Below are positions 7,302 through 49,482 of a stretch of DNA of 51,618 nt, piece by piece; position 1 is the stretch's first letter, and each line of letters opens with the position of its first letter. A model generated the notes under the pieces. It saw only the letters and a program-made list of their open reading frames with translations, searched no databases and was not told the DNA's origin. Source of the stretch: an uncultured Clostridia bacterium (GTDB lineage Bacteria; Bacillota; Clostridia; Christensenellales; Borkfalkiaceae); contig CANQTD010000011.1 of assembly GCA_947626685.1 (NCBI GenBank), positions 1 through 51,618 of the forward strand, given 5' to 3'. A program made the position numbers and the translations under genes.

Positions 7302-7334
7302 CCCTTGTGCGAGGAGTGCATCGGCGCACAAGGG
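7302..7334. other. Strong hairpin after the giant gene
   Basis: CCCTTGTGCG and CGCACAAGGG form a perfect 10-bp stem with a 13-base loop, 34 bp beyond the stop codon of the giant gene. There is no U-tract, so it is more likely a 3'-end stabiliser or attenuating structure than a terminator. Confidence 0.6.
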
Positions 7335-7367
7335 ACGAGGGATACGGCGAAGGGTTACGCCGAAGGG

Positions 7368-10300
7368 TCACGGGGTCATTCCGTGCTCTGTTTCGGCCTC
7401 TTGACCTGGCATATCGCCCTGTTCATTTTGCGCCTTCTTGCGCTTTTTGCGGGGCTTGGCGTCGGGGTCCTTTTCCCTTCTATTGCGGACGGTGAGGACG
7501 ACGATCGCGAAGATGACGACGACGAACGCGCCCAGCCCGAGCAGAAGGAATTGCAGCCAGAGGTCGGGATAAGGACGGAGGATCCTGAACGAGAAGGTCG
7601 CGCTCAATCCATCGTACAGCTCGCTCTCCGCCACTTCGTATTTGGCGTAATAGGTTCCCGCGGCGGCGGTCTCGAGCTCTTCTTCACTGATCTCGTCGGT
7701 GCAGGCGCTGTCGCGGTAGTACTTGACGGACGCAATGCCGCCGTATTCCGCAACGGCGTCGGTGGCGCGGGAAGCCTCCTTGCCCTCGACCCAATCTCCG
7801 CGGTAGAATTCCACGACCCAACGGTTCTGCATCTTGCCGACGACGATGTGCAGGGTGAGGACGTCTGCCTCGGCGCCGTTTTCATCGAGGAGCATGTAAT
7901 TGCCCTTTTCGCTGCCGCCGAGCGTGACCTCGACGTCGCGCGTGCCCACTTCTTCGTCCGCATAGACGAGACGGACGTCGTCGCCTGCGATGAAGTCGCC
8001 CGTGGTCACGACGAGCTGGCGGCCCGCCGCCGTCTCCTCTTTGTTCCACGAGATCGTGACGGGCTTTCGGGTCACGGTGAAAGCGGTATCTTGGGCGGCG
8101 TTCTGCAAGAAGTAGTTCGCGCTGTCCGAGAGCGTGTAGGTGAAGATCGCGCGCTGCGTGCCTGCGGAATCCCGTTCGAGCTGCGCAGTGACGGTGAGGC
8201 GGAAGTTCTCCCTGTCCGCCGCCACGACGCCGACGACTTCAAGCCCGCTGACGTCGAGCAGATCGTCCAGACTGCGCGAGCCGTTGTATTCGCGCGCGGT
8301 CTCTTTGAGCGTGACGCCCGTGACCGTGAGCGGAGCCTTCGCGACCGTGACGATGACGGAGGAGGAAACTGCCGAGAAGTTGGCGTTTGCGTCGTAGTAG
8401 ACGGTGTAGACGCCCGCGCCGCGGATCTCATCGACGGCCTTGCCTTCGAGGTAGACGCGGCAGGTGTAGTCCTCGCCGTACAGGGGCATGATCCCCGCCG
8501 CGTCGACGAGGGAGGCGGGAGAGACCGTCTCGCCGTTGTAAACGCCCGCGTAAGCGCGCAGTTCGAAGGAAGCGGGCGCGATCACGACGTTGACGCTCTC
8601 CGTACCCGGATTGAATACATAGTCGCGTGCGGCGGTACCCTTCAAAACCGCGGTGACGGTGTACTCGCCCGCATTTACGAGCCCTTCGCCTCCGCGGACG
8701 CTCAGATCGAAGAGCGCATCATCGAGCGCGACGGGAGTGCCGCTGTCGCCGCGTACGAAGGAGAAGGAAATGTCGCCCATGCGGTCGGTGCCGTTGTAGA
8801 CGAGCTGCCCGCTCTCGCTCCTCAGAATGAGGCTCGCGGGGGTGATCTCCACGGACATGGTATCCACGGAGAAGGCGAGGTTGTCGCCGTTGCTTGCGCG
8901 CAAGGTCAGTGTGTACGTCCCGACGCCGAAGATGCGTTCTTCCCCGTCTGCGGTGACGGTGTAGTCGGAGACATCGACGACGGCGGAGGAGTAGAGATGC
9001 ACGAGATCCTTCACGGCGTACCCCTCTTCGCGGTAGACGAGGGAATCCGTCCACGTCACTTCGACCTCGGCGGGAACGATGACGATCTCGACGCAGTCGC
9101 CGTCCTCATACGAAAGCTCGTAGTTGCCCGCAACGCTCTTTGCAAGTTCGACGGTGAGATAGTAGACGCCCGCGTCGCGGATCTCCTCCGCCTTGCCCGT
9201 GACGTGCACGGTGAAGTCGCTCGCGGCGGGATAGACCGCGCCGTCGAAGGCGAACAGGCTCTCGGTGTTGCGCACCGCGCCCGTGTAGGCGAACTGCGTT
9301 TCGAGGGAGCGCACGAGCAGTTTCGCGGGCAAAATCTTCCAGCTTCCGTCCTGCGTGAATACGGGCTCGTTGTAGTTGAGCGTATCATAGACGAAGTTGA
9401 CGCTGACGGAATAGCTGCCCGCGTCGAGCGCCTCGTTGCCCGTGTACACGGCGGAAACGCCCGCGGGAAGATTTTCGAGGACGACGGACTGCATCGTGCC
9501 GTTGTAGGTGAGTTCGCGCTCCGACCACTGAACGCCGTCCATGTCGTAGGTCGCTTTCTCCACGGTGACGGTGCGGACGACGGTGGTCCCGAGATAGTTG
9601 TCCGTCGCGGCGATCACATAGAAGATCTGGTAGCTGCCCGCATGCAGGATGAGGGGGAACGAGGTCACGGGGACGCCGTCCTCGAGGCGGGAAATCTCCA
9701 CTTTCGCGTCCTCGAAATTCGTTTCGTACCTCAGATCGAGGTTGCGGGGCCTGCCGTCGTAGGTGAACGTTTCGCTTTCGAGCCTCGGGGTGACGGTCGC
9801 CTGCCCTCTGCGCACGGTGACGATGACGGTGCTTCTCGCCTCGAAATAGTTGGTGCTCTCTCCGAGAACGACCGTCACGCGGTATTCGCCCGCGTCGCGG
9901 ATCACGCCGTGATCGCACACATATTGCAGGGTGCCGGGCGCGTCTTTCGTGAGCACGCTCGCGCCGCTGTTTACGGTAAATTCTTCGCCCGTGTAGGTGA
10001 ACTCGCGCGGCACGCCGCTGACGTCGATCGAGGCGCGCGCCTTCGTGATGGTGTAAGGGCCGGCGAGCTCGATCGTGTAGCCGTACACTCTGCCCTCGCC
10101 CAACGTGTAGTTGGTCTTGCTGCTGTCGAGCTCAATGGTGACGTACACGCTGTGTTCGCCCGCGTTGGCGCTGTCGAAACGGGCGGTGATCTTGGGACTG
10201 AACGAATCCCCTCCGCACAGCCCGAGGAAGGTGCCGCCGAGCACGGTGGCCACAGGCGTTCCGTCGTAGACCTTGCCCTGCACCTCGTAGCCGCTCACGG

Positions 10301-13300
10301 TGAGACGGCGCGGGGTGATCTCGGCTTGGGCGGTGTACGTCTCTTCGAGACCCGTGAGGACGTAGTTGGGAGCGTCCTTGCCGAGGGCCTGAATGACATC
10401 TTTTCCGATCGTGACCGTGCGGCCGCTGCCCGCGTTGAAGTCGGCGAACACGCCGCTCGCTTCGAGACGGAAGTCGTCGCCCGCGACCGCGCCCGTGAAG
10501 TGGACGGTGATGACGGCGGAGTTCGTTCCGTCGTAAACCTTGCCTTCGACGGAGATGCCGCTCACCTTGACCGCTTTCGGCGTGATCGTGAACGTCTTGG
10601 TCACGCCGTCGATGGGTTCGTAGTTCTTTTCGTCGCCCGAGAAGGAGATGGCAACGGTGTACCTGCCCGCGTCGGTGGGTGCGACCGCACTCTCGTAACT
10701 GCCGCCGTCCGCGCTCGTGTAGAAGTAGGAGACGATGACCCCTGCGGGCACATTCGTCGCTTCGAGACCGTGGGCGGAAGCGTCGTACTCCACGCTATTT
10801 GCGGTGTATTCAACGCCGCCCATATCGTAGGAGATCTTGTTGACCCTGATGAGCATGTAGCGGTTGAATACGTTGTCCGTGTCGTAGTTGTCTACGTCGC
10901 GGCCCGCGAACTCGACGCCCTCCGCGTCGCCGAGCAGGATGATGTACCAGCCCGCGTCCTTCGGATAGCCCTGTTCGTCCCAGACGTTGCCGCGCACGCC
11001 CGCCGCCCGCGATCTGTGCTCCGCATGGACGGAGGCGAGGAGCGACTGAATATCTTCGTAGGTGGGCATTTCGTCGAGGAGATAGGTGAACACGCGCGAG
11101 CGCACGATGACCTCGTCCCCTTCCTGCTTGCCCTCGACGGTGGGATTGAACACCGATTCGCCGTAGGTATCCCCGCGGTAGTTGAGTTCGAGGACCTCTG
11201 CGGTCACCGTCTCGCCGCCCTCGACGACGTCTTTGCCCTCTGCGTCCTTCATGGGCTCGCGCTTGGGCGACTCGGAGATCTCGTCCGACGTCCAGTCGAT
11301 GACGACGTCCTCTTTGTGCTCGTCCTCCTGTGCGGGAGGAACGATCGCCTTGACGGTGAGCACAGCCGTATCGTTCTCGGTGAGCACGGTGACGGTGTAG
11401 TTGTTGTTGGTCAGCGTGAGCTCGATGGAGTAGCTGCCCGCGATGAGGTAGCCCGCGGAGCTCTCCTTTGCGGGAACGCCGTCTGCGAGCGCGGTCGCCG
11501 TGACGAGCTTTCTGAGCTCGGCGAGCCTGTTCTCTTCTGCAACGGAGTTGAAGCCCTCGACGCTCTTGACGATGCCATCGAAGCCCTTTCCGCCGAACAC
11601 GAAGTCGGCGAGGTCGTCGAAGAGCAGGCTGCCGTAGTCGAGCTCGGAGCCCGTCTTGAGGGTGACGGTGATCGCCTCGGGCACGATGACGAGGGTGAAC
11701 GTCCTCACGAGGTTCTCGTGGTACTGCGCTGTCGCGTGCACTTCGACGGTGTACGTCGCGGCGTCGGTGCCCGTACGGGTGCCGACGTAGCTGACCGTGA
11801 CGGGCTGCCCGCCCACTGTGACGAACGCCGTTTCGGGGACAGTCATCTCGTGCGGCTTGCCGTCGTAGGTGACCGTTTCCAGCCAGTTGAAGTCCTCCGT
11901 CGTGACGATGGTGGCGTTTCCGATCGTGTATTTGCCCTTGATCACGGTGAGATCGTAGTTGCCCGCGACGGAAGCGTCGAGCTCCGCAGAGACGGGATAT
12001 TCGCCCGGCGCTGCCAAATAGGTCCCGTCGGCGCCCGCGAGAGCGTCGCAGGTGAGCGTCATGAGGCCTTCGTCGCCGTTGACGAACTGCGTGCCGCCCT
12101 CGGGATACTTCCAATACACGCCGTGCGCGATCGTGAGGGTGCGGAGCGCGCTGCCGTACGCCGCTTGCAGGTCGGCCGTGATCTGAATGGTCACCGCTCT
12201 CTTTGCGATGGTGATCGCAAAGCTGTTGCCGCCCACGATGACATAGTTGCCCGCGAGCGTGCCCGCAAGTTCGACCGAGACGTGGAACTTCGACCCTGCC
12301 GCCGCGCTTGCGACGGAGCCCTCTTCCGCCTCGAACACAAAGCGGTACTCGGGGCTCTCCGCGCCCACCGTGCCGTTGAGGAGCACGGTGAGGATCTTGG
12401 GATCGAGGCGAAGCGCGCTCTCGGGCGTGCGGCCGTTGTAGACGTAGCTTGCGGCAGCCGCGGAGGAACCCGTCCACTTCACGGTCTCGTTGTCCGCGAC
12501 GGTCCACGACCCGACGGTGAGTTCTGCGGGCAAAATGTTGCCTGCGACGCGCTCCGTGGGATTTTCAAGCTCATAGTTGTTGTCTCCGCTCGTGAGCTCG
12601 AACGTCACGGTAATGTACGACGCGATGCCTGCGTCCTTCGAATTGTAGACCGCGCTCTTGCTGAACGTGGGCGCTTCTGCCGAAGCGGGCACGCCGTCGA
12701 GCTTGACGTCGCCGTCGAACAGGGCAACCACCGTCCCGTCGTACGTCTTATCCGACTTGACTTTGTACACTGCCGTGAGCTTCGCCTTTGCGATCGAGTA
12801 GGCACAGTCGCCATTCAAGATCTCATAGTTTTGGAGAACGCTTCCTTCGTCCATGACGACGGAGACCGAATAACCGGCACCCGCGTCGGTCTTTCCGCCG
12901 TTGCTATACGTCCATTCAACGCTGTCCCCGTTTACGAAGTTCGCACCCGTGACGGTGGGACGCTGCAGCTCGCCGTTGTAGGTGAGGTCGCTGCTGCTCC
13001 ATGTGAGGGCGAGCGGCGCGCGCTTCACTTCGAATGTGTGCTCCATGCCGCCGACGAGCTTGAAGTTGCCGTTGTAGCCGTTCTCCTCCGTGAGGGTGAC
13101 GACCACCTTGTAACTTCCCGCATGCGTGGGCATCTCGGCGAAAGGAGCTTCTTTTCCGTAGTTCCACGTTCCGTCGTAAGACGTCCCGTAGTAAGCGTAG
13201 CTGAGCGTGACAAGCCCGAGCGTGATATTGTGCTTTTCGAGTCTTCCGTTGAAGTCGACCGAGGCCGTGGCGGGGAGAAGAGTCCCGCCGTAGGTGCCGC

Positions 13301-28300: not shown

Positions 28301-31300
28301 CGTTCGCGTCTTTCCCCGTGAGGGTGCTGACCGTCATGAGCGCATTGATCCAATTTTTGAGCTTCAACTCCTGCTCTTTCTGATTGAAGGTGTACGTCGA
28401 GCTCGCATCGGCCTTATCGGGCTTCTCGAGCGCGTACTTATACACGGTGTATTCTGCGCTCGGAATGTCTTGCTCAGCCGCCGTTGCGGAATCGGTTGCG
28501 CCGTCCAACGCGGCGAATGTATAAGTATTGAAATAATAATTCTTGGCGAGCGCGCCCTCGATCCCCGTAACGGTCGCCGTGTAGTAGCCCGCGTTGATCG
28601 CGCCCGTCTTATCGGCGTCGTCAACGCGCTCGTTGCCCGTCGCCGTATGTAACGTGGAACCCGCGGAGAGGGTATAGAAGATCTGGAGATCTTCTTTTCC
28701 CGAGATCCCCTTGCGGCGCGTCTCGAGCGTTTGCTCCACGCCGTCCGTATAGGTGCCGTTGGGCTTAAATGTCGCCGTTGCCGCTTTGCCGAAATTGCCG
28801 TCGCCCGCGCCCTTCCACTCGACCTCGAGCGCGACGGGCAGAATGCGGAAGTAGAAGCTCTTGTTTTCCTTATCGAGCGAGTTGCCGTCGCTGCCGTTCT
28901 TCCATACGAAATTCGTCTTATCTGCAAGCTCGATCACGACATGGTATGCCCCGACTTTGTCTGTCGCGCTATCGCGCTTGACGTCGGTCTCGCTCGTAAT
29001 GCCCGTATTTCCCTCGAGATAGAGCTTGACGCGGTCGGCATTGTTATCCCCAACCGCTTTGCTCGCGCCCAACAAATACGCATAACTATCCGCGTTGAGA
29101 GCAGTTGTAAACGCCTGCGGGTTGCCCGTGTAGTTCGTATTGAAGATTTTGCCGTCCGCTTTGGATATATCGACAGAATTTCCCCCGAGCGTGGGCAAGT
29201 CAAGCTCATAGGGCTTGATCTGCAGGTAGAAAGTGAACTCGTGGTTGCTCGCATAATCCGCCGCGGTGTGGTCGTCTGTGCCCCACGAATAGTTGGCAGA
29301 GTCGGTGAGCGCGATCGTGATCTCGTAATAATCCAGTGCGTCCCCCGACCATGTAACGTCGGTAAAGCCGAGAACGTTTTCGAGGGTATATCCGAGGCTT
29401 TCGACCGCCTCCCCGGGCTTAAAGAATTGCGAATTATTCACCACCTTGCCGTTTACGGTCGTCACGGTGATGTATTGGCTGATCTTGTCCCACTCCTTGA
29501 TGAACTCGTTGTAGAGGTATTTCTTCCCCCGATATGTGACGAATACGGTATCGTTTGCTGTGGTATGCTCGCCGAGCGTGGCGTCGAGCCCATCGGGGAG
29601 CGCAAGCGTGGGTACGAGCACGAAGGACTCTTTGATCGAGAACTCTTTGGGAACGAAGTAGTTGTTGCTTTTCGTGGAGCCGAGGGCGTAGCCTTGCTCG
29701 GTTTTGTCAAAGGCATAGTTGTCGAAAACGCGGATAGAAGCCTGCCCCGAAGGCGTGTCGACCTTGATCTCTTTGCTCGTCACGTCCTCGCGCGTGAGCA
29801 CGGAGTAATATTTACCCGATTTGATGACCTCGGCGTTTTCGACAAAATCCGTCGGACTGCCCGTGACAGATCGATACACCTTCGGAACGAGCGTAAAGGA
29901 ATCGCCCCGGGCAAGATTCTGTGCAATCGGCTTGAGGTAATGCGCTTTCGTGTCATAGCTGAACCAGAAAGCCTCTGTATCCCCGTTTCCTTGCAAATTT
30001 TTGTCCTCTTGGTCGCCCGCCCAATTGATGTCGAACGTCTTGCGCTGCATGGTGAGCGTAACCGTGATGGATTTGGAATACCCCTCCGCGGTCGACTCGC
30101 CTTTCCAAACATAGTTGCCGGGGTAAGTGTCTTTTGCCGTGTTGGTATTGTCGCGGAAGTAGAGCTCTACGGTGTACGAGCCCGCATAAGTGACATAAGC
30201 GTAGAGTTTCCTCTCGCTGTTGTTATAAGAAATGTGGTAGTGACCGCCCGATTCGGAGGCCTCCTTGAACGTCACCCCGGAAGCAGATTCGCCATTCAGG
30301 GTAAACAGCATGGTGTTCGTGTTGTAATTCGAGATCTCGAACTGCGCTTCCAAACCGTTATAGGTACTGACCGTGCCGCCGATCACTTGGGGCTTTTCTA
30401 CCTCTCTCGGCACAACGTACCAATCCACGCCGTGTGCGGTCTGCTCCGTCTCGGGAAGCGAGGCCTCCTCGTCATCTGCTGTTGCAATGTAATAATTCGG
30501 GTTCGCGATGAGATAGAGGGTGTACTTCCCCGCAAGCGTGCCCTTGACTTCGGATTTTTTGCCGTCTACAGCACTCTCTCCGTCGGCCACAAGCCGAACG
30601 ATCGAGGAAAGCCCTCCTGCATTGAAACTCGCTTCGGAATACTTGTTCCCGCCGAATGTAGAATCGACAGATATGATCTCAAGCGTGTTGTCTTGAAGCT
30701 GATGTCCGCCGAACGGGATCTCGTCCGGCTTGAAGAACGGATATTTCGTATAATCGGTCGGGTCGATCCGCATACGGTGGATCACCCAAGTGAGCACGGC
30801 GAATTTACGCTCTCCGCTCGTAGTCTCTTTATCTTCGAACTTGACGGAGCCGTCTGCACGTTCTTCGTCCCAAACATAATTGTTGTAATCTTCCAGTTGG
30901 ACATAGATCGTGTAGGTGGCCGCATCCCTTGCATGGAACGAGCCCAGTTTCCCGTCGTCAACGGTGACGCCCTGCGTAAATCCTGCATCGGTGTTGATGG
31001 ACATTGTCGTCGAGGCCGACGTATGCGTCTCGGTGTTGAAATCGTTGAGCGTGATCGGAATGCTGCTGCCCGTAAAGGAATAGTAATCGAGATCGCCCCG
31101 ATGCGCGGGGATCGTGGGAGCCGTGATCGGCCGCTTGGTGATTTCGAACTTTTCGTAGGCCTCGGCAAAGTTATAGTCGTTGAACTCTTTGTCGACGTTG
31201 TTGAGCGTAACTTCGTGGTAAATGGTGTAGGCGATCGCGTAATAACTGCCGACGGGAAGCCCTCTCAGCTGCTCTGCGCCCCTGTGAATTTCGCCCGTCG

Positions 31301-34300
31301 TGTTTTGCTCCTTCAGAATAAGCCCGTAGATCCCCTTCGGGGCATTCTCGGCTTCCGTCCCCGCCTGTTTATACTCGTCGTACTGCTTTTTGTATGTATT
31401 GAAGATATCCTCGGTGACATAGATGAAGTCGTAGGATTGTTTTGTGCCGTCCCAATCATGTGCACCATAGAAAGGATCGCTCGTCGTTGCGGCTGCGGTA
31501 AGATTTTCCGTATAATAGGTGCGGGTGTAATAGTCGCCCGAGGCGCCGATCGATTCGTTCGGAGTGTGCGTGGGCGCATTCCACCCCTCTGCCGAGAAGT
31601 CCACCTCGAGCGTGTTGCCCTCGTACCTGTTGATGGTAAAGGTGAGAACGGCACCACCCTCTATAAGGCCGCTGCAAATGCCGCCCTTGCCCATATCGCG
31701 GTTGTCGGCAGACCAAGTATAGATCTTGGCGGCCTCTGTGGAGAGCATGACCTGCAAGGTATAGCCATAGGCGTGGGGAAGGCTTGTTACTTCCGCACCC
31801 GTCGTGCCGCCCTGCGAACTGTTGTTCCATTGGATCTGCCATTGCAGCCCGCCGCCTGCCTCGAATATATGCTCTGTATGATCGGGATCCAACTGGAGAA
31901 AATAGTATGCCTCGAGATAGTTGTAAGGGTTCAAGCCGTCCTTCCCGGAATAGACCCTTTCGAGCTCGTTCCCTTCGGCGGCCTTTTTCCAGCGGAGCAT
32001 GAGCGGCTGCTTACTGATGGTAAATTGCGCGTCGACCGTCGCGGTGTTGTAATATTCGAACGCCCAGAAGTAGACCCTCACGCGGTAAGTGCCCGGCGTC
32101 GTCGGAATGAATAGATCGGAGAATTTCTTGCTCTCGTCTGTTTCACCGATATACTCGATACGATATTTGAAAAGCTCCTCCGGCTTTGTGACTTCTTCGT
32201 ACTCAAATTCACGGTCTTTGTTGGTCTGGTATTGAGGCCCCGCATAGCGCGCCATACTCGCGAAAGTATAGGAGTCGGAAAACTCCATACCGTCGTCTGA
32301 TTTGAGCAAGATCGTGTAGACCAAATTTTCTTTACCCGTGTACTCGAGATTGCTGAACTCGACTTCGAGATTGAGCCTTTGGCCGACGATCGTAAGGGCA
32401 TAATACAGATGATAGAGCCCGTTTGTCTCACCGGTCATGTCCTCGTTGCGGTCCTCGGGGGAAAGAGCGTCGAGCGCGCTGCCGCGTGAGGTCAGATTCC
32501 ACTGATAGACGCCGTCGAGATCGAGATCGGCAAAGAGGCGATAGTTCCCGAGCGCGTCATTTCCGCTGATCTGTAAATAATAATAGCTGTCATCTTTTCC
32601 TTTTAAGATATTGACTTTTAGGTCTACGCCATCTTCGACGACGACCTGCCAACTGTTCGGGTGGGCTTTCTGTTCTTCTTCCGTATCGTAATCGGACGAA
32701 GCCACCGCTTCGGTGTGGGCGACTTTCTTCCATTTTTTCGTCGCGTCGTCGTATTTCCAGAGCTCCATGCTCATACGGACGGCGTCCTCTTTGTTGCCGT
32801 AGAACCAGCCGACAGAGAGGTTGTTGAAACGGAACTCGGCGCCCTTCGTCGCGTCTGCTAAGGTCGTGTATTGCAACGTCGTGTACGTCGCCTCGGTCGC
32901 CATCGTGAAGATGGTTGCCCTTTGGACGTCCAGCATAAAGTCCGTCCGCATGCTTTCTTCCGGATCATAGACATAGTCGCGGTAGACGGCGATCTCATGT
33001 TGAATGATGTTTCCGCTTTTATCCTTGATCTCGGGGATCACATACAGAACGCGGACGAGCGCGATCTCGGCGCGGATCGCGGAATAATAGGTCTTTTTGC
33101 CGTTTTTATCTGTCTTTTGGACGGAACTCGTAAAGTAGTTGAAAATCGACTTGCCGTTGAGCTGCGTGCTGTCGATCATGATCCCTTCGCAGTCGTCGAA
33201 AGGCATCAGTTCGCTATCATTCTTTACGAACTCCGTGTTCTCGGGCGTCCCCTCTGTTTGGAATTTCCCATCGGGCCCAAAGACATCGTCCCAAGTATAG
33301 TAATAGCGGGTGACGAAGCCGAGCCCCTCCATGTCCGTTCTCTTCGAAGTAAACACGGGGTGGTTGAAGGTCGCGATCAACGACTTGTTTTCGTCATATT
33401 GTAAATAACGGCCGTACTTGTTGAGCCCGTCCTTCTTGATTTGTTCGTCCGTGTCTGTGGATTGTCCGATATAGTCCTTGATCTGCCATTCGTCGCGGAC
33501 GTTCGTTAAGGTACGGGTGTAGTTTTTCCCTTTTGTGCCCGAGGCATCATCGTGCCGTTTTACATGGAAGGTGAACTCCATGTCGGCCTCACCGCCATAC
33601 GCGGTGTTGAACGCATACGCGGAATTGATGCGTTGGTTTTGAACGTACCCTTCTAATTTGAGCTTATCGATCTCTTCATATTTGACCTTGACGGGGATAT
33701 ACCCATAGGCATTGCTATAATAGAACGTGAGCCAACGGATATAGTACCCGTCCTTATAGTCCTGCCACTCCCCGTCGCCAAGTTGTTTCCAATTTGCCTC
33801 CCCGTTTTTGAGTTCTCCGTCCTCAAAGTCGTCCTCATCGAAGATATGGCGGGTGGTCGCCGACGCCGTATAGGTATTGCCGCCGTCGATCTTCCATGTG
33901 AGAGGGCCGAGATCGCCGCTGATCGTGTACTCATTCGTGAGCGGGGTCACGATCCCCGTATTCATCACATGGTTCACTGTGAGTTGGCCGTTATTTTTAA
34001 GCGTCTGAAGAATACTCGAGACCTCCGACGCATAGATGGGGCTCTCCACTTCGCCCGACGTTCTGCGGTATGTATATTCAAGAACGGGATTGCCGTCTTG
34101 ATCGGGAGTGCCCGTATCCTTGACTGTATATGTGACCGCCGACTGATCTTTGCCGTCGATTTTCTGCGTGTACTGCGCGTCGATATAGTAGCCCCAATTT
34201 CGGGTGAAGCGCACTTTGAGCTCGTTGGACGACATGATATTGCCCGAGCCACCGATCTCGTTGCTCGGCGTAAAGTCAAGTACGACGGTGGACGCTTCAT

Positions 34301-35666
34301 CTTCAGAAGTTGTGCGTGTGAGCGTGGTATTTACCTTGAACGTACCGTATTCTTCGTCGGTGGCGAGCGTCTCAAGCACGCCGCCGTTGTTGTCGTAAAC
34401 GCGCGCGCGAATGGCAAAGCGGAGAGCGTACTCGTCCCCGTTTACAACGAACGCGTCGAATCTGTGCTCGATATCGCTCGTGAGGTGCTTTTGAAGCGTC
34501 CCCTTATGGCCGTTTTCGTCGGTCGCCTGCGGGATCTCCGCTCCGATCTTGCGCTTATAGTAATGCAGCCCGACGCCGCTGTTCGAGGACCAATAGACGG
34601 TGGAGGGAATATGCCCCGTTTCCTCCTGCTCATTGGGATCGTACACCGCATCCTTTTCGTTATCGGGATTGTAGTTGACGGAAATACGCACCGCCTTCGG
34701 AGAAGTGGTCGTACCGGGGATACTGTTGATTGTGTAGGTCTGCGTTGTATAGCCGTCGTATTCGGAGGGATATTGGAGAGCGACGTTGACGCTGTTCTCG
34801 TTTCCGCTTTCAGCGAACGCATCTTTCGGGTTCGTACACGAAATAAATTCGCGGGGGATCTCGAAATAGTGCTCGTTATCGCCCTTCGGCCTCGCCTGAA
34901 TGCTGGCACGGTAGTCAAAAGAGTAAATGTTATAAGTGCGCAGCCCCGTGTTTTTATATACGAATTGACCCTCGGGCCACGAAGCCTGCAACGTGCCGTC
35001 CTCGAATGCGGGCGGGTCGGTATAAAATTTTGCCGTCGCCGTTCTCTTGGCCAAATTCTCTTCATCTGTTCCGCTCATCTCATCGGACGAGCTGATCTCG
35101 AGAAGCGGCGAGACGATGATCGTCACGTCGCGGCCGTCGGTCCAGCTGAAATCGGATTCGCAAAATTCGAAAGGCTTCGTATCGAGCGGATCTGCGGGGA
35201 TAACGGTCGTTTCACCGCCCTGCACCACCGTTTCGCTGCGGTCGTTGAAAGTCGTTTTGTGCTCTGCGCTCGTATGGTTCAACTCGACCTTAATGTTGAA
35301 CTCGTTGGGTTTGAGCACGCGGTTGGGGTCGTTCCCGCTCGTGCCGACCCTTACGTTCGCCACGACTTTCAGACGCGTCTTGAGGTCCCACAATGTGGTC
35401 TCTTTATAGACGCGCCTCGCAAAGTCTATGCTACCGTCCTCCCCGACGTTTTGGTAGCCGTATTTTTCATCAAAGCCGACGCTCACCCAACCGTTGTAGT
35501 AGGTGATGTCGGTGTCGACATATTCGGCAAGTTCCGCGGCTTGCACGGAAACGGGCGCGCTCTTCCCCTTCAAGAGCACCGCCATGCCCGCGATCGCTGT
35601 CACGACGGATAAAAACGCGCACAGCAAGATCGTCCAAGACTTCTTAGAAAACCGTTTCGTAAACAT
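7368..35666 (-). CDS. Giant MBG/YDG-repeat cell-surface protein, 9,432 residues
   Basis: One uninterrupted 28.3-kb gene for a protein of about 1 MDa. Residues 1-45 are a signal peptide (basic start, hydrophobic 12-31, likely cut near VQA-AEL). Residues up to about 1,100 are non-repetitive. Most of the rest is tandem beta-sandwich modules of about 80-100 residues with recurring Y-N/D-G starts, GxY...V centres and NY-W ends. These are the style of MBG (YGX-type, e.g. ITYGGEFGDKF near 4,930, FTTIYGDEP near 3,190) and YDG domains (near 8,380). A final membrane helix (about 9,369-9,393) precedes a 39-residue basic tail. There is no LPXTG motif, so anchoring is by the membrane helix, not sortase. 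A role in adhesion or as a long surface stalk is inferred from the family. RBS AAAGGGAG precedes the ATG. Confidence 0.93.
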   Translation of the reverse strand: MFTKRFSKKSWTILLCAFLSVVTAIAGMAVLLKGKSAPVSVQAAELAEYVDTDITYYNGWVSVGFDEKYGYQNVGEDGSIDFARRVYKETTLWDLKTRLKVVANVRVGTSGNDPNRVLKPNEFNIKVELNHTSAEHKTTFNDRSETVVQGGETTVIPADPLDTKPFEFCESDFSWTDGRDVTIIVSPLLEISSSDEMSGTDEENLAKRTATAKFYTDPPAFEDGTLQASWPEGQFVYKNTGLRTYNIYSFDYRASIQARPKGDNEHYFEIPREFISCTNPKDAFAESGNENSVNVALQYPSEYDGYTTQTYTINSIPGTTTSPKAVRISVNYNPDNEKDAVYDPNEQEETGHIPSTVYWSSNSGVGLHYYKRKIGAEIPQATDENGHKGTLQKHLTSDIEHRFDAFVVNGDEYALRFAIRARVYDNNGGVLETLATDEEYGTFKVNTTLTRTTSEDEASTVVLDFTPSNEIGGSGNIMSSNELKVRFTRNWGYYIDAQYTQKIDGKDQSAVTYTVKDTGTPDQDGNPVLEYTYRRTSGEVESPIYASEVSSILQTLKNNGQLTVNHVMNTGIVTPLTNEYTISGDLGPLTWKIDGGNTYTASATTRHIFDEDDFEDGELKNGEANWKQLGDGEWQDYKDGYYIRWLTFYYSNAYGYIPVKVKYEEIDKLKLEGYVQNQRINSAYAFNTAYGGEADMEFTFHVKRHDDASGTKGKNYTRTLTNVRDEWQIKDYIGQSTDTDEQIKKDGLNKYGRYLQYDENKSLIATFNHPVFTSKRTDMEGLGFVTRYYYTWDDVFGPDGKFQTEGTPENTEFVKNDSELMPFDDCEGIMIDSTQLNGKSIFNYFTSSVQKTDKNGKKTYYSAIRAEIALVRVLYVIPEIKDKSGNIIQHEIAVYRDYVYDPEESMRTDFMLDVQRATIFTMATEATYTTLQYTTLADATKGAEFRFNNLSVGWFYGNKEDAVRMSMELWKYDDATKKWKKVAHTEAVASSDYDTEEEQKAHPNSWQVVVEDGVDLKVNILKGKDDSYYYLQISGNDALGNYRLFADLDLDGVYQWNLTSRGSALDALSPEDRNEDMTGETNGLYHLYYALTIVGQRLNLEVEFSNLEYTGKENLVYTILLKSDDGMEFSDSYTFASMARYAGPQYQTNKDREFEYEEVTKPEELFKYRIEYIGETDESKKFSDLFIPTTPGTYRVRVYFWAFEYYNTATVDAQFTISKQPLMLRWKKAAEGNELERVYSGKDGLNPYNYLEAYYFLQLDPDHTEHIFEAGGGLQWQIQWNNSSQGGTTGAEVTSLPHAYGYTLQVMLSTEAAKIYTWSADNRDMGKGGICSGLIEGGAVLTFTINRYEGNTLEVDFSAEGWNAPTHTPNESIGASGDYYTRTYYTENLTAAATTSDPFYGAHDWDGTKQSYDFIYVTEDIFNTYKKQYDEYKQAGTEAENAPKGIYGLILKEQNTTGEIHRGAEQLRGLPVGSYYAIAYTIYHEVTLNNVDKEFNDYNFAEAYEKFEITKRPITAPTIPAHRGDLDYYSFTGSSIPITLNDFNTETHTSASTTMSINTDAGFTQGVTVDDGKLGSFHARDAATYTIYVQLEDYNNYVWDEERADGSVKFEDKETTSGERKFAVLTWVIHRMRIDPTDYTKYPFFKPDEIPFGGHQLQDNTLEIISVDSTFGGNKYSEASFNAGGLSSIVRLVADGESAVDGKKSEVKGTLAGKYTLYLIANPNYYIATADDEEASLPETEQTAHGVDWYVVPREVEKPQVIGGTVSTYNGLEAQFEISNYNTNTMLFTLNGESASGVTFKEASESGGHYHISYNNSERKLYAYVTYAGSYTVELYFRDNTNTAKDTYPGNYVWKGESTAEGYSKSITVTLTMQRKTFDINWAGDQEDKNLQGNGDTEAFWFSYDTKAHYLKPIAQNLARGDSFTLVPKVYRSVTGSPTDFVENAEVIKSGKYYSVLTREDVTSKEIKVDTPSGQASIRVFDNYAFDKTEQGYALGSTKSNNYFVPKEFSIKESFVLVPTLALPDGLDATLGEHTTANDTVFVTYRGKKYLYNEFIKEWDKISQYITVTTVNGKVVNNSQFFKPGEAVESLGYTLENVLGFTDVTWSGDALDYYEITIALTDSANYSWGTDDHTAADYASNHEFTFYLQIKPYELDLPTLGGNSVDISKADGKIFNTNYTGNPQAFTTALNADSYAYLLGASKAVGDNNADRVKLYLEGNTGITSETDVKRDSATDKVGAYHVVIELADKTNFVWKNGSDGNSLDKENKSFYFRILPVALEVEWKGAGDGNFGKAATATFKPNGTYTDGVEQTLETRRKGISGKEDLQIFYTLSAGSTLHTATGNERVDDADKTGAINAGYYTATVTGIEGALAKNYYFNTYTFAALDGATDSATAAEQDIPSAEYTVYKYALEKPDKADASSTYTFNQKEQELKLKNWINALMTVSTLTGKDANGGDLKGSTDGTTEPLTTLLLKATRAGKYSFTVDLQTEAKKNYFWNGDQNSVDQMPDATTGTATAAYNDFWEIKPREVMAPVLATGENGESGKYNFRAQPRAEGEALYPDFTNELLQAASGNMTGSDGTFTKKVQQANGDTAWDVTFTVAYYNEKGESITPQNDCKEVGYYYILLTLTIPVGDEEADYRWISSDNSYERGQMTSYFDTHPDETTIKGQVTIKLWYRILKGRYTATFTLNVNDVAQPERTGGWKYGDLQQQHGDSAISFTRVFPNGEPSGWHEATEINDRDVSYAIVDESGNYDAHKLLGNDELVQNKPISGSAAASTAAKYIPATIPYKAGKYVALISYPENGFEHNDPTKDEATLEAATFEVFFEIKPKEITVTWGKDKEYNGTNQLADATVSNPVADFHTVDSTLVKDADNLTLTVQWWNDGGYKSNGPVNVNRSKTGEEVGSYTMRVTEIGGTAAPNYCFTQKGGETDYETRDLYTHEFQITPIAITLKAGDYTREFGDNYFGNTDLHTLSENSVTYSPTSGKILDGSSDDYQRDALSTAFYVYGYLPDYRRDKTTGAVTGEHVQRDSAAGGKYYTVLVIASETYRERYSNYDFTYEDGVYTIQPKQVTELHWITDPELIYNGTDQFTSYNGTHPTAPFVSFENNSGVSTPLVPQVQFFVGETEVTDFGFKYAGEYIFKVVGTGNENYEFAASLTEELKQHSYTMKKRTVLLTANSFTTIYGDEPTQDDLKWSYTRASSDADRFVTDKGIAIADWSDGITIDDYSISAKTVNALAFLVYTEATQFSNVGTYTTHIKLGEDGEAIIRAEYENYIVEVTVGRHTINQRTVAIEWDEERTFYYDGTDRTVGSDGTVGSKAWLAYYVDVQTGDKVYLRVRAVESKGNNQTALPFEYVKEGEADYLFYAYQFNNMTEEGKNYTLPSPGTAEFEKSYANVSLKAREVHIDALAHSRVYGDDLKTWHGAADGSENCNDVRGWKYGDDSADAEHQFVNGDALNFWVKIASIQPTTDVGTMSEAFELLFNGKPATYDGESYFITSGETDRDGYDYHVYFTNANVTVNPRPIIVTYTLQSHEYGAQRQDPANHIDVSLNTTLYKERGGQGSDQTPLAGHGNGDVFTIVAVDGAGNDIVTATTYPDVGNYAVRLTLKNKNYTIQYVMDSGMVGTDELKLADTALPEDKVERDAASGYVITASQILSDGFSITTYSSEAKNYDAIAHAVFSAISGKYYSNDGSELAGQQVSYSKWDGTVLGADQNYFAVYFRWATGWDAATMNNADGIWKQNDFTSPNFVFNDGAWKFTNPTGYEWKTAVPTFQHAGTYYVYYAVVAKNHVLYCNEGLLLTVTINRTEVTVSTVFDAYYGESLEGYVPTYTFEGFAGSEAEANAFNIQGVSEIGYSVTAYTAGKSGKGHYAVTLDLSKLTAPDYAFSAKAYSNGTSTARANDMEVRALPVTITVYTSKATNHYYFNAAVGREPAWDLNLLGAEKAYTMSVNVGSLLYPDSPEKTITDIYSGDYTADKTGVKFLTFSSKGALPGGTTGDETGNVGSYDISYDFQTYDGTNGSDRYKVTLVSNQSLTVEGQTITNGFTITEAEFKQEAVHAYGAASVLQDGATYDEQLHHVLHLGKNHDTEGPIDEGSYADLTKFVTAADGNAAQWTFVIFRNSDKDSGEDYEKDDFFEASKWSGKAGVTFVAAGTATPQIVDAGKYVIYYRIQLANHATVYQRLEGKINQAKNEWVTEYSVGSRSLSGGVHWIYGAYDAANNPNGFGAATNKEQLPVPKFDRKVGVTGEEETQPTEGKNNASLVVIKKDGVVIHTYQTVDDFLKSWLEATGEGNRANGANLDAGTYTVTYSMEGTDNYTAIGEKTYTFTVGKKNLKVTAVNAEIYYGEEQPATFGLRYDGFVNGQNEAVLEGKDGASFRVFSKITTGAESDYAYAPGYEKGSVGDYFVLVTWGSETNGNYNILCQNTEGTAGKLTVKPRELTVSITDRTNKYMFNVSQTGREEQKDWSDDVASMVTVKKTSGGGTYSGFYGEELAKVFYLTTDALTWKEGTTEYTVANITGTASVGHYAVKAVLRGAVDGKDYGKNYTLKFEGNYDGEGDADDAWGLYAIEKAQITITIAGPEEGLEYTGHAKEYKQTNASVNSVHFDIVYSVQRGEAYEPLAEAPKDVGKYKVSFSTTDPNYTATDSEQEFAITPKTIKVSYTIEEYTDKTGDTRRIVANEGALYYYARPYVVVGKANEQETDPVYSDSKYARDGLIVFADKGKIEVVITYQFNGRTGVDDAIDAGQYVATAHLRKDGAAYDDPNYTIESNTENANEGTYKNFVIMPQVVTSPAAKGNGTITYNGNENAFTVDHFMGEIDEHIDEKQAGQGAVMTVEFEYEGRKISPEDYERYGIKVPAYGENGSITWAARDVGVYTITVTLNPYNNYGNYNLSEHGSDHQLVFTLTIRKAALYVQVKNADITYGGEFGDKFKENLELLFCGTDSADSFTATAGLMASDVEDGHIKDGVITLDKKQIGATQGGARYSTASPAGSTYYLILTGIEVTSKNYNVTLRDYGVLTVVAKEITLKITDPEQASVYTGAEFDVSKLGESYRPTLALAEGSELNAAAGDEISSLNVTYTVGGTADSADDKTDVGAHVLIPKGGNPNYLISFTGTWSGEGEYKSKAGTFTVVPASLTAYVSLQSEEKDPSATDKAFDVTYGDTPVFGVYLVGWVGKDEGGVEPNFEFKFATAQQNYSEQAEYAAWLSIAGSRYTVSVSNREEAFFKNYTVSFAQSEATMTVVSRVITASTQNRVFESNEDRSNKDIPAEITFTNVAEGEFAAYAPALGSSYLLTYTGAYADRTLSFTSGIPQHVGNFKVKVAMQKNTLGSYNYKFSDGEISDDGASLSLDYEITPLEITLAWDSTLIQADLTEETTNSIQAFDQRIMEFAYNFNSVSVSEGITLSNEGVTVQITAPGEGIGTVTLKDENGYRHDYSLITELSSGGSDSIILTFRVVSENVDFTVEINGWTYGQWKDTSYTEGGNQPQTSSEQIDVETATITFTYIPLDTNGKSLWQRYQDLISKPSADKAEKQALVEQLMRLARTSQIATADAGAYLVRADLSSNTSYAAAVAFAYFEIAKVQLEVPKLTPEGGHTTCYYTGSEHKMDITGYDPATMTYVAGGGLTLSQKVDGGNVTIVVSATNAGKYTISFRLAQSTVNYEWKLADGTTSIEAQTITYQIQKNYATVALKDGDAVTQTYGVEKEPEVTLGFQKLNENRTFNDFVVTFKYKLLEGDSETGDFLTEKPKTVGRYAIYATVEGGVNFEGVTENIGTLDIQKAELKIYVSSEFKVTYGDELPEKLAYATASGLYYGDTLDALLSELGITYSAMNGDTPYAAGANAGETFKVTIDLNDATLPNYELSVNESQNLSFTVGKRHITVKVNTLTSYFGEEHEAQTVRSTDKEFGTAGFAWSVRSGSLFKKDDAVDLIALILTPELTGEQIDGAYKVGSYTLNGAVTHVDGSKEANYEISVESGNYYIERLEIEFKKTEATAPEGSADGKIYYNHGNAIDIDVDIAYTVNKKDYTADLSDATGNEGYNQYFYLTYSGVTGNGSQYGTGDETTEAPTVAGNYRVNVLLGAQYNDQVVLTGTTSSRYAVYTVERFKLDVDRAQEAISGYAYTFNGEKQGPETTNVKSAVDGAFKEAYGDHEAISAAFTVGDYDKGVNVGTYNIPITFGQEASYNYRWVRGSTMLNDDTAQLSYKIAKQTDTKIFFTDEKGDEDFDLSDPLVTRVFDGTFHADQLHLRSNVRAFVDFDITKATGEITLYIATGDEKPTFDRDNTDVWKKLTYAESLQVNSDAAMAGTHWIVVELGETENYASATTASNMAHYVIEKRKVYIVVNEGENFVGGTYSPDLKESGLNFELPYRFIDGENEGSTLGRENSIDIITANLGATFSISGTAFSGNDYNGSKVEAGSYTVTATEAGTCVTCFNFLNNNGCEVELDGVEKTPKYLVLRAALYSANIQIGTNGGFDYDGTEHSAIEAVQNTVANPRYGISWEIKEANNTKGTEAGYYPFTVSLKDENNYYWSRTGDAAASLPTAETVKDVSLSFEIRAVEVTVTLHEAAFTVGGSQQTAEAGSNAKWTYGDEAAFASADFNVAAVSGKPIASELPFTMEYLIGGSWRDTLPTAAGTYKVRVRLSASGNFTNEPFSNDEIFIEIAKKVVNAVADPAGKAYTGAEITTVVEGVDLYVVRVSLELEDAEGFSYNIVTPEIGGTPELHLTATNKGVYTFYLTLNDSSNYVWETKDGFTVDGAKATLKWTISSAEGTVTLDEIASVEYGNYLTVHATSEFSSSFRYEYAPRGDEKEPNPDAVWTAWGANGPQNAGKYWVRATLEETENYTEATAWKAAEITKAALTVRVTGGYGDFVYGAHTIAELRFSLGYEGFQFTDNELGFGAAAKIETEKDLSTLTYLPAATYEVGLDRELTLQNYTVTVEKASFTVSPKPIEVNVRSQTVTYQRGVTPEIVQTEWEVLNDGLIKGDMISVTLVLEHADEGNFNYIVGSYAIDGVAGADEVTGNYAITFKSGVLTVNSVVINIESVTANDTVYGSVTPATFTVEGKGEQSSGYKFADGVTVVVTYSLGEATFTQDVPVNAGVYNVKLALAGESGLDDTANYTLTGTLDALLNVKQAEIVIGSITANDTVYGSVTPATFTVNGREGAQESGYKFADGVTILVKYGLDNAELSAALPVNAAIYNVKLELAGEEGKDDTANYTLTGTLDATLLVAKRTLSVEAVQKNVPAGFKLTYSGKAQTVSDEAFDALAETMRAIENFLIESDQAQVPFTAATKYEGTDVGSYNIRIKLTEEIAKNYAWDTTGSDKADIAFEIAKAGNSITITLNGSSKDVSWTFDGYPAGTAQEDTVEPHKGYYKFTCAFGRETAQYMFYRVEADGSETLMSEAPVSVGKYKFSVMIPDTANYAGVESNKVDLEIKPRELVANYNAEYMGGTYGGTLLPATASVDFNGRLEKHNITLGLVTLSYAYYGTSYDGTWNYGKEAPFAEMPTHAGSYKVVVTLTEENGYNGNFKLVGGMEHTFEVKRAPLALTWSSSDLTYNGELQRPTVTGANFVNGDSVEWTYSNGGKTDAGAGYSVSVVMDEGSVLQNYEILNGDCAYSIAKAKLTAVYKVKSDKTYDGTVVALFDGDVKLDGVPASAEAPTFSKSAVYNSKDAGIASYITVTFELTSGDNNYELENPTERVAGNILPAELTVGSWTVADNETVKWTGSSAAAASYVYNGRTPESALRLDPKILTVLLNGTVGAESPEYRFVFEAEEGSVASAAAGSKFHVSVELAGTLAGNYVIVGGNSFAITIAKRAVTIQITADLQAAYGSALRTLTIAHGVYWKYPEGGTQFVNGDEGLMTLTCDALAGADGTYLAAPGEYPVSAELDASVAGNYDLTVIKGKYTIGNATIVTTEDFNWLETVTYDGKPHEMTVPETAFVTVGGQPVTVSYVGTRTGTDAATYTVEVHATAQYHENLVRTFTLVIVPEAITVTLKTGSELDYGSLLFDDLADFVFGGKGFDGIVKSVEGFNSVAEENRLAELRKLVTATALADGVPAKESSAGYLIAGSYSIELTLTNNNYTVTVLTENDTAVLTVKAIVPPAQEDEHKEDVVIDWTSDEISESPKREPMKDAEGKDVVEGGETVTAEVLELNYRGDTYGESVFNPTVEGKQEGDEVIVRSRVFTYLLDEMPTYEDIQSLLASVHAEHRSRAAGVRGNVWDEQGYPKDAGWYIILLGDAEGVEFAGRDVDNYDTDNVFNRYMLIRVNKISYDMGGVEYTANSVEYDASAHGLEATNVPAGVIVSYFYTSADGGSYESAVAPTDAGRYTVAISFSGDEKNYEPIDGVTKTFTITPKAVKVSGISVEGKVYDGTNSAVITVHFTGAVAGDDFRLEASGVFADFNAGSGRTVTIGKDVIQALGKDAPNYVLTGLEETYTAQAEITPRRLTVSGYEVQGKVYDGTPVATVLGGTFLGLCGGDSFSPKITARFDSANAGEHSVYVTIELDSSKTNYTLGEGRVYGYTIELAGPYTITKARASIDVSGVPREFTYTGEEFTVNSGASVLTKDAPGTLQYVCDHGVIRDAGEYRVTVVLGESTNYFEARSTVIVTVRRGQATVTPRLESETFTYDGRPRNLDLRYETNFEDAKVEISRLEDGVPVTSFPLILHAGSYQIFYVIAATDNYLGTTVVRTVTVEKATYDMDGVQWSERELTYNGTMQSVVLENLPAGVSAVYTGNEALDAGSYSVSVNFVYDTLNYNEPVFTQDGSWKILPAKLLVRSLETQFAYTGAVRNTESLFAFDGAVYPAASDFTVHVTGKAEEIRDAGVYYLTVELAKSVAGNYELSYEDGDCVEIVIVPAEVEVTWTDSLVYREEGYAVKDLVHLYSSAVVDVSDYTVTADGEERIFGVGTYTLTLRASNGDNLAFSVDTMSVEITPASLILRSESGQLVYNGTDRMGDISFSFVRGDSGTPVALDDALFDLSVRGGEGLVNAGEYTVTAVLKGTAARDYVFNPGTESVNVVIAPASFELRAYAGVYNGETVSPASLVDAAGIMPLYGEDYTCRVYLEGKAVDEIRGAGVYTVYYDANANFSAVSSSVIVTVAKAPLTVTGVTLKETAREYNGSRSLDDLLDVSGLEVVGVVAADRENFRLTVTAQLERDSAGTQRAIFTYTLSDSANYFLQNAAQDTAFTVTRKPVTISWNKEETAAGRQLVVTTGDFIAGDDVRLVYADEEVGTRDVEVTLGGSEKGNYMLLDENGAEADVLTLHIVVGKMQNRWVVEFYRGDWVEGKEASRATDAVAEYGGIASVKYYRDSACTDEISEEELETAAAGTYYAKYEVAESELYDGLSATFSFRILRPYPDLWLQFLLLGLGAFVVVIFAIVVLTVRNRREKDPDAKPRKKRKKAQNEQGDMPGQEAETEHGMTP
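13972..14559 (-). repeat. Two near-identical 294-bp (98-residue) tandem modules inside the giant gene
   Basis: Two successive MBG YGX-type units, both starting TANDTVYGSVTPATFTV and ending DDTANYTLTGTLDA, lie in register 294 bp apart (for example GTGCCC at 13981 and 14275). Most other modules in the protein are far more diverged, so this pair is a recent duplication or has been homogenised. Confidence 0.88.
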
Positions 35667-35855: not shown

Positions 35856-35884
35856 ATTATATCATGGCATTTTCGGATTATCAA
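35856..35884 (-). promoter_or_regulatory. Promoter of the giant surface-protein gene
   Basis: Minus strand TTGATA, 17 bp, TATAAT. ATGGCATTTT (plus strand) occurs twice, at 35835-35844 and 35864-35873, flanking the -10 with a 29-bp period, and may be a regulator site. Confidence 0.82.
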
Positions 35885-35903: not shown

Positions 35904-35915
35904 CCCCCCCCCCCC
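35904..35915. repeat. 12-base C/G homopolymer upstream of the giant-gene promoter
   Basis: A run of 12 C on the plus strand (G on the coding strand) ends about 20 bp upstream of the -35 box. It is the longest G/C homopolymer I noticed in the window. Tracts of this length are prone to slippage. Confidence 0.85.
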
Positions 35916-36072: not shown

Positions 36073-36102
36073 AAAAAATGCCCTGCGGGAAAGCCGCAGG
36101 GC
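36073..36102 (-). terminator. Rho-independent terminator after queH
   Basis: Minus strand GCCCTGCGG, loop CTTTC, CCGCAGGGC, then ATTTTTTG, 28 bp beyond the queH stop. It closes the ruvX-pdxS-pdxT-queH cluster. The remaining gap to the giant gene's promoter holds no recognisable gene. Confidence 0.92.
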
Positions 36103-39938: not shown

Positions 39939-39967
39939 TTGTTGACATAATTTTATCGCATTATACA
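39939..39967 (+). promoter_or_regulatory. Promoter of the gene at 39980
   Basis: TTGTTG, 17 bp, TATACA. The predicted start leaves a leader of only about 6 nt containing AGGT before the ATG, so nearly leaderless. A TTGACA lies within it but at a poor 14-bp spacing. Confidence 0.5.
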
Positions 39968-39979
39968 TGAAATATAGGT

Positions 39980-40861
39980 ATGCGAGTATATTTTTTGTCC
40001 GAATTTCCCTGCACGCTCTGGGTGGGCGGGCTCCTGCTCGGCGGCATAGACGGGCATGAGCGCAGCGTGGAGATCGACCCTGCGAACGCGCTCTTCTGCG
40101 AATGCAAACGCCCCGCATGCCTTCCCGTCTCCTTCACGTTCGACGAGGCCTTCCTCACCGCTCCCCCCGACCATGTCCGCATCTATCACACGCGGACGGG
40201 CGTGGCGGTCTATGTCTGCGGCTTTCTCCGCGAGGACGCCGCCCTCCGTCCCCTCGCGCAGGAACGCATCCGCGGGACCCTCCTCACCCTCTATGTGCAG
40301 GGAAGGGTGCAGCTCTCCCTCTCCAACGAGACGGGGCTGCATATCGTTTGCCTCGGCGACGAATTTGAGGGCGCGAAACTGCGGGAGGCGGGCGAACTCT
40401 TTCTCATCGAAGCGCAGACCGCGTTCTGCCTCGTGACGCGGGACGGGGAGATCAAAGTGACTTCCGAGGGGACCGTCTCGGAGTGCGGGGAACGGGTGAC
40501 GGCGGAGGTGCCCTTCCGCGACAGCCTCGCCCATACCGCCCTCTGTACGTGGGAAAAAGGCGAACTGACCGATTGCCGCATCCGCACCGCGCGCACGCCG
40601 CAGCCCGCGACCTACGCGCTCGCCCTCTTCGAATCCGTGCTCATCGGGGCTGACCCCGCGCCCTATCTCGCGGAAAATCTTGTGCCGAAAGCGGACGCGC
40701 TCAAAGAGTTTCTCGGCGAGTTTGTCTCCGTCGTTCTCACGGACAGGGGGGATGAGATCGGGCTCGTCTATCCGCGCGGGAAGCGCGTGTTCGAGGTCCG
40801 CTATTTCCGCGTCGCCCTCGGGGAGGACGGCAAGATCTCCAACATTAGCCCGATGGAATAG
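39980..40861 (+). CDS. Protein of unknown function, 293 residues
   Basis: I do not recognise this family. It has no signal peptide or membrane helix. The N-terminal 160 residues look beta-rich (VYFLSEFPCTLWVGG, GLHIVCLGDEF) and may bind a small molecule or partner. The C-terminal part (ATYALALFESVLIGAD... FEVRYFRVALGED) resembles an SnoaL/NTF2-like or cystatin-like fold by pattern only. The start follows a short AGGT-containing leader. The 3' end is immediately followed by the covarying hairpin element. It is divergent from the coiled-coil gene at 39352, which may be its regulator; that is inference. Confidence 0.6.
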   Translation: MRVYFLSEFPCTLWVGGLLLGGIDGHERSVEIDPANALFCECKRPACLPVSFTFDEAFLTAPPDHVRIYHTRTGVAVYVCGFLREDAALRPLAQERIRGTLLTLYVQGRVQLSLSNETGLHIVCLGDEFEGAKLREAGELFLIEAQTAFCLVTRDGEIKVTSEGTVSECGERVTAEVPFRDSLAHTALCTWEKGELTDCRIRTARTPQPATYALALFESVLIGADPAPYLAENLVPKADALKEFLGEFVSVVLTDRGDEIGLVYPRGKRVFEVRYFRVALGEDGKISNISPME

Positions 40862-49480: not shown

Positions 49481-49482
49481 CC

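Follow-up and report, generated by a model that had tools for sequence, protein, structure and literature searches.

Giant bacterial proteins are often merely listed by size. The locus described here, a single gene for a 9,432-residue surface protein in an uncultured Clostridia bacterium, raises the question of what such a protein is, which of its parts selection maintains and how its expression may be controlled. The sequence analyzed, hereafter the window, is the whole stretch of 51,618 nucleotides from contig CANQTD010000011.1, which belongs to a genome of 1.78 Mb in 52 contigs. Comparison with relatives reveals what selection keeps, namely the head and the order of the modules, and what it swaps, namely the anchor end. 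It also ties giants to switch-like promoters, a link that is testable from the sequencing reads of the same samples.

Architecture of the giant gene and its product

The gene is one open frame on the minus strand, starting with ATG and containing a single stop, the terminal one, as the first-pass annotation of this DNA had claimed in describing an uninterrupted giant surface-protein frame. The gene and the parts of its product are as follows.

7368..35666, minus strand: giant surface protein gene, 9,432 aa (open frame and homologues)
35538..35666, minus strand: predicted signal peptide, residues 1-43 (hydrophobicity and relatives with the same layout; cleavage site not predicted)
32442..35537, minus strand: head, residues 44-1075 (without a Pfam family at E 1 or a sequence-profile match in the PDB)
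15057..32441, minus strand: collinear core, residues 1076-6870, built of MBG-like modules that have one-to-one orthologues (module comparison)
10857..15056, minus strand: variable zone, residues 6871-8270 (indels relative to G288; duplicated module)
7371..10856, minus strand: C-terminal block, residues 8271-9432, type alpha (two YDG modules and anchor)
22380..22652, minus strand: MBG_2 module, the core's best Pfam MBG match (Pfam)
12555..12782, minus strand: YDG module, 32.2 bits (Pfam)
10353..10583, minus strand: YDG module, 58.8 bits (Pfam)
10101..10316, minus strand: YDG module, 46 bits (Pfam)
7479..7571, minus strand: C-terminal transmembrane helix (hydrophobicity)
7371-7478, minus strand: K/R-rich tail after the C-terminal helix

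The N-terminus is hydrophobic in windows from about residue 9, in agreement with the signal peptide proposed earlier. The sole C-terminal hydrophobic stretch covers residues ~9,366-9,396 and precedes a basic tail. The last 120 residues contain no LPXTG-like motif, which bears out the earlier suggestion of a membrane anchor lacking LPXTG. A search for sortase (PF04203) gave no match in any of 8 genomes, the window's own among them, and was positive in 3 of 14 control genomes. Sortase anchoring was rejected on these two grounds, the missing LPXTG and the missing sortase match. The lack of a sortase match in 8/8 genomes goes beyond the first-pass annotation, as do the switch-like features upstream of giants described below. 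The protein has the export signal, stalk domains, anchor and unusual length of fibrillar adhesins, and it is very probably a membrane-anchored surface filament. For the adhesive domain that also marks this class, the head gave no Pfam or PDB match.

Tandem Repeats Finder detected no array within the gene, the only hit being a 2.8-copy 13-mer at 7338-7373 that touches its last bases, so an assembler has little to collapse. A 4,420-aa frame on the plus strand (7305-20567) was rejected as a gene: it is a codon-aligned shadow of the giant gene, in which just 17 of 9,433 codons are TTA, CTA or TCA and none of these lies beyond codon ~5,500.

Modules and head

Searched against Pfam in three pieces, the protein matched YDG (83.7 bits, three stretches) and MBG_2 (29.1 bits) above the cut-off; another MBG_2 match (18.3) and one to MBG_3 (17.7) fell short of it. 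At Pfam's curated cut-off it belongs to the MBG/YDG modular surface proteins, and all three YDG places in the window genome fall in the giant gene. NCBIfam gave no match on three pieces of the protein, and the N-terminal 3,000 residues matched no Pfam family at E 0.01. The MBG/YDG assignment made earlier is right in kind, but Pfam recognizes few of the modules.

An in-house module HMM identified 67 modules at i-E<0.01 and 74 at i-E<1. Their median length is 96 residues and the first clear one starts at residue 1145, consistent with the earlier remark that the N-terminal ~1,100 residues lack the repeat. The HMM produced 433 matches in 9 real proteins versus 9 in 18 reversed or shuffled decoys; because it was trained on these same proteins, the module count is a description and not an independent test. 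When the window modules are compared among themselves, the median score of the best match is 30 bits, against 68 bits for the best match in the relative G288. One neighbouring pair is a recent duplication (62% identical, residues 7064-7248), and the other best internal pairs listed over the full module are about 26-37% identical.

Profile searches against the PDB gave one match for the head, at E 0.4, and none for the core. When seven head sequences were searched with Pfam, five families appeared, each in one member only (best E 0.012).

A family of collinear giants

In the comparisons below, G000 denotes the window genome or gene, and G288, G232, G366, G275, G113 and G368 are relatives. The first head search, covering 61 relatives, returned the own genome only; head relatives occur in 5 of the 103 genomes of the genus, own included. 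Over its full length, a 961-column core profile matches 8 genes, found in 7 of the 398 family genomes, again with the own genome included, and two of these 8 genes belong to another genus. A profile scan of GTDB contigs yielded 6 loci with four sample numbers, all titled uncultured Clostridia bacterium isolate Lapin-..., a name that suggests rabbit and is the sole host evidence. Eight further genes share the head and/or core of the window protein in collinear order; L049, a gene beyond the 8 profile matches, was compared over its first 3,947 residues only.

Between G000 and G288 a single alignment spans 7,477 columns, with 42% identity. Divided into 300-residue bins, 28 of 32, C-terminal bins among them, show 39-53% identity, and the four bins of residues 6,601-7,800 show 27-35% with much of the sequence unaligned. 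The giant evolves fast, given that the DnaK of G288 is 94% identical to that of the window genome. In the core of this pair dN is 0.49 and dS 1.83, and dN is below dS in the closer pairs for which dS could be estimated; the closest pair has a dN/dS of about 0.46, a value that also fits relaxed constraint.

Of the 66 window modules matched in G288, 53 find their best counterpart in the collinear position; among the 13 exceptions, 11 start at residue 6,872 or beyond. The pattern recurs in G232C14, where 45 of 66 are collinear and 20 of 21 exceptions lie at residue 7,064 or beyond. Fewer are collinear in relatives of core type B (37/65 in G113 and 34/66 in G275), partly because single modules are too diverged to place. 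The window modules are individuals, each with its own orthologue as far as residue ~6,870, and the C-terminal quarter is a zone of duplication and exchange. The first-pass annotation spoke of a long repeat stalk; the ~67 modules are there, but they are not interchangeable.

That the frame is an assembly artefact, or one in decay, is scarcely credible: although these are draft contigs, with two relatives running past contig ends and one beginning inside, open collinear frames recur in genomes of several samples and dN/dS is below 1. An assembly join, which the first-pass annotation had named as a possible objection, was rejected since the relatives from other samples are open and collinear. The length itself, called extreme among bacteria in that annotation, is real at 9,432 aa, but giant frames are normal in this bacterial family. 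Among the matches listed, the window frame is the fourth longest of at least 32 frames that reach 5,000 aa, spread over 29 genomes, complete and contig-truncated frames being counted together.

Exchange of the anchor end

The cores fall into type A (G000, G288, G232C14 and G366) and type B (G232C32, G275, G113 and G368), and A and B cores are 30-33% identical. The C-terminal block is of type alpha in G000 and G288 only, among the members compared, and of type beta in all others. G366 combines an A-type core with a beta C-terminus: it is 65% identical to the B-type G275 in the block and 31% in the core. Furthermore, the last 2.5 kb of the two G232 paralogues are 91% identical in nucleotides, compared with 38-53% before. 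Both G232 contigs end inside this shared 2.5 kb, and the copies differ by 9%, so they are not one sequence assembled twice. The variable zone of the window protein lies near the edge of exchange in relatives. The comparison shows an exchangeable anchor end and a core of different modules in constant order.

Among A-type members, core identity is 64% between G232 and G366 versus 42-43% to G000 and G288. Of the 103 genomes in the window's genus, 100 matched the DnaK query. Because this yardstick has no match at E 0.001 in G366 and G368 (6 and 5 candidates scored), horizontal transfer of the A type is not separable from old paralogy.

Promoter region of the window gene

Three features lie upstream of the window gene.

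35856..35884, minus strand: promoter TTGATA-N17-TATAAT, with TG before the -10 and 11/12 consensus bases
35904..35915, minus strand: G12 tract, 19 nt upstream of the -35; proposed slippage switch
36080..36102, minus strand: terminator-like hairpin that follows queH, the gene upstream (QueH family)

The hairpin stands between queH and the giant gene, which therefore likely has its own transcript. The G12 tract is the longest of five G-runs of at least 10 in the window assembly; since about one G12 is expected by chance per such genome (our own estimate from base composition), only its place is telling. It lies outside the -35/-10 spacer. Where a homopolymer-switched promoter is understood as one with a tract of at least 8 in or next to the core promoter, the window gene belongs there by the adjacent position only. 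A similar layout occurs in G113 (G10, 21 nt, TTGCGT-N17-TATAAT).

Inverted repeats at the window gene are limited to weak AT-rich 11-15-mers, and an invertible promoter was rejected here for lack of a good inverted repeat. The recombinase of G275 had no match in G000 at E 1e-20. With a G-run just upstream of the promoter, variable transcription is plausible for the window gene and, within the class, least certain for it; phase variation of this gene is marginally favoured.

G-runs, inverted repeats and recombinases upstream of giants

The survey comprised 51 giants, 40 of them new and hand-picked among the matches listed (frames of roughly 4,000 aa and longer with an MBG-type match) and 11 known before, several of which had already displayed the switch-like features. 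Two without a signal-like start were dropped, leaving 49 usable giants, 38 of them new. Start codons were chosen by rule, and those of G203C1 and a few others may be wrong. The controls were 168 of 190 genes, 22 having been removed because their upstream DNA shares sequence with that of a giant; before removal, 8/190 had a run of at least 9 and 3/190 an inverted-repeat promoter.

A G-run of at least 9 lies upstream of 12/49 giants versus 2/168 controls, both controls in one intergenic region; the giants are related to one another, and this and the following giant counts are not independent. Runs of at least 8 in the spacer of a promoter with a score of at least 10/12 were found in 8/49 giants and 0/168 controls, always pointing at the giant, in a test that permitted spacers of 14-26 nt and admits G035 (10/12). 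Examples are TTGACA and TATAAT around G13, G9 and G8. Each of the 8 spacer cases belongs to the 38 new giants, as do 10 of the 12 long runs (p ~7e-7 each). Under a stricter spacer test, random placement of the runs scores equally well in about 1% of 10,200 trials.

Inverted repeats around the promoter were found with 18-nt arms in 7/49 giants versus 2/168 controls, and with 28-nt arms in 6/49 versus 0/168. Together, the two tests identify 8 distinct giant genes, L049 and G227C80 passing the 18-nt test only and G275 the 28-nt test only; none of 245 hexamer-block shuffles had an inverted-repeat promoter. The enclosed promoter points away from the giant in 7 cases and towards it in one (L049). 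Six of the 8 were known before the survey, and in the 38 new giants alone the counts are not significant (2/38 vs 2/168, p 0.16; 1/38 vs 0/168, p 0.18). The new contig G183C36 starts exactly at such a repeat arm and was left out of the count. Additionally, a tyrosine recombinase lies directly upstream in 4 of the 8 cases (G275, G232C32, G366 and G030), as counted at giants only. No switch-like feature was seen in 28/49 giants.

These data bear on the alternative that the window protein is a constitutive giant adhesin under normal control, the promoter G-runs and inverted repeats of its class being chance or ancestral features. We consider it unlikely: the near-consensus window promoter with its G-run outside, the 28 featureless giants and the non-significant inverted repeats in the new giants agree with it, but it leaves unaccounted for the spacer G-runs, which occur in 8 giants and no control, always face the giant and all come from new giants, and the recombinases beside half of the inverted-repeat promoters. 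We prefer stochastic phase variation, which these promoter signatures make likely for the class of giants.

Comparison with known systems

The modules of the staphylococcal proteins Ebh and Embp are of FIVAR/GA type and helical. The window protein differs in its MBG-like modules, and Pfam on three pieces gave no FIVAR/GA family at E 0.01. In other respects these giant surface proteins (~1.1 MDa) resemble it in their reported giant size, secretion signal and C-terminal membrane anchor, which is transmembrane/cytoplasmic in Ebh (Ebh, PMC6548404; Embp, PMC9302970). Periscope proteins (SasG, Rib, Sgo_0707 and CdrA) likewise carry an N-terminal functional domain on a stalk of domains, and the YDG and MBG_2 Pfam families were made during the study that describes them (PMC8201768). 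Their stalks consist of highly similar repeats in variable number, whereas the window modules are diverged and their order is fixed. A periscope-type stalk was rejected in view of the single 62% pair, the median internal score of 30 bits, the collinear modules and the lack of arrays, although module number does vary in the C-terminal quarter of the window protein's family.

Giant1-5 of Apilactobacillus kunkeei are extracellular proteins of 3,000-8,000 aa encoded in a ~1.5 Mb genome. They resemble the window family in sequence exchange between genera and intragenic recombination, and differ in having beta-solenoid heads, repeats that are either helical or beta, and C-termini of DUF5776; the abstract and structure section of that paper do not mention switches (PMC12863079). 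DUF5776 had no match in the window protein (Pfam, three pieces).

Homopolymer tracts in the promoter spacer are familiar from Neisseria porA-type promoters. The tracts of the giants are G-runs, in Clostridia, before giant genes and known here from sequence alone, and so differ from sabA, where a promoter-region poly-T is reported to vary in length within a strain (PMC2715451). For the other type of switch, the parallel is CwpV of Clostridioides difficile, also a modular surface protein with invertible DNA upstream, in which 21-bp inverted repeats enclose a 195-bp invertible segment; it differs in that the segment does not contain the promoter and switching is proposed to act through a terminator, as well as in its size of 167 kDa and its cell-wall-binding motifs (PMC2784873). 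Firmicutes_A genomes in a defined gut community are reported to carry a median of 3 invertons each, and one mainly Clostridia inverton group is tied to a tyrosine recombinase family (PMC11892184). Surface proteins are given as a main bacterial group in a survey of huge proteins in UniProt (PMC11573180). The single ideas are already covered by Ebh, the periscope proteins, the A. kunkeei giants, CwpV and sabA; among the open-access papers listed, none joined the giant proteins of this lineage to such switches.

Proposed function and expression

Taken together, we moderately favour the reading of the window protein as a fibrillar surface protein, plausibly an adhesin or shield, of a class that appears from its promoters to be under stochastic phase variation. 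The protein would be exported by Sec as a single-molecule surface filament, its fold, length and export all being predictions, with the head (residues 44-1075) held far from the cell on ~67 small beta modules and one C-terminal helix with its basic tail keeping the protein in the membrane. Small modules span a few nanometres each. A series of 67-74 modules would give a filament of about a quarter of a micrometre. Its function would most likely be that of an adhesin, or of a crowding shield like staphylococcal Ebh.

A shield or spacer that is no adhesin, whose length keeps off neighbours, phages and host cells as proposed for Ebh, SasG and SraP, is possible but doubtful. Ebh offers a precedent, with its secretion signal, C-terminal transmembrane/cytoplasmic anchor and size-dependent shielding (PMC6548404), yet a pure spacer needs neither modules conserved one to one nor a conserved head.

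Improbable, in our estimate, is a membrane-spanning pair in which the giant and a neighbouring membrane protein (N-terminal helix, RSFxAKL repeats) form a signalling or force-bearing complex. A homologous partner gene lies directly downstream in 3 of the 6 family members with downstream DNA (G113, G366 and G368) and in G030, but the window gene and G288 have no adjoining partner, and the small protein encoded after the G275 giant aligns with a partner across no more than 23 residues. The partner domain is present in 14/14 genomes searched, and at many other loci too. The tails of the giants are basic in most, and the partners have acidic stretches.

Returning to the phase-variable surface filament, giants of this class are probably ON in some cells only, as their upstream signatures suggest. 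The switch would be a G-run in the promoter spacer in some relatives and an invertible promoter in others, half of the latter with a tyrosine recombinase. More tentatively, and with our confidence leaning against it, we put forward a 'phasome of giants' in this family of uncultured gut Clostridia. Many giant genes would be controlled by either of two stochastic switches that work independently, one a G-run that tunes the -35/-10 spacer and the other an invertible promoter, which in some cases has a tyrosine recombinase of its own. Such genes would combine these switches with individually conserved modules and an exchangeable anchor end that might move between genera; each cell would then show a random subset of very long filaments. 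If switching is true, this little-known and uncultured gut lineage would wear a bet-hedged coat, its surface being a gamble and not a fixed property, which would bear on colonisation, immune recognition and phage attack.

Other observations

Just downstream of the giant gene, the window encodes an HTH regulator (PF01381, 5467-5754) and a 369-aa protein without a Pfam match (5909-7018). A tyrosine recombinase, two genes like this regulator and then tRNA-Ala are found upstream of the G366 giant (L074:15087-17426), a region that resembles an integrated element. By eye, a direct repeat resembling TTGTTAGGA occurs twice upstream of the giant in both G288 (L028:1-272) and G366 (L074:14545-15110); it is perhaps an operator.

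Partner genes directly downstream of several giants are located at L037:12822-15809, L043:13299-15203, L073:4789-6834 and L075:3-1025. Their products have an N-terminal helix, RSFxAKL...FGVRGKTLCLYLAL repeats and E/P-rich tails; a Pfam scan of the L037 and L043 copies gave no match over the cut-off.

GC3 rises from 5' to 3' along the window gene (0.70 to 0.83-0.86) and the G288 giant (0.48 to 0.78), and also in G232C14, G232C32, G275, G113 and G222. The rise is little or absent in the giants of G366, G368 (5' end missing), G122 and G030. One idea is biased gene conversion at the exchanged end.

Finally, a 39-bp unit is present in 2.4 copies at 42942-43035 of the window, near tRNA-Gly. Similar translated strings occur in the mechanical ORFs 39953-41002 (minus strand) and 49366-51618 (plus strand), which suggests a dispersed repeat.
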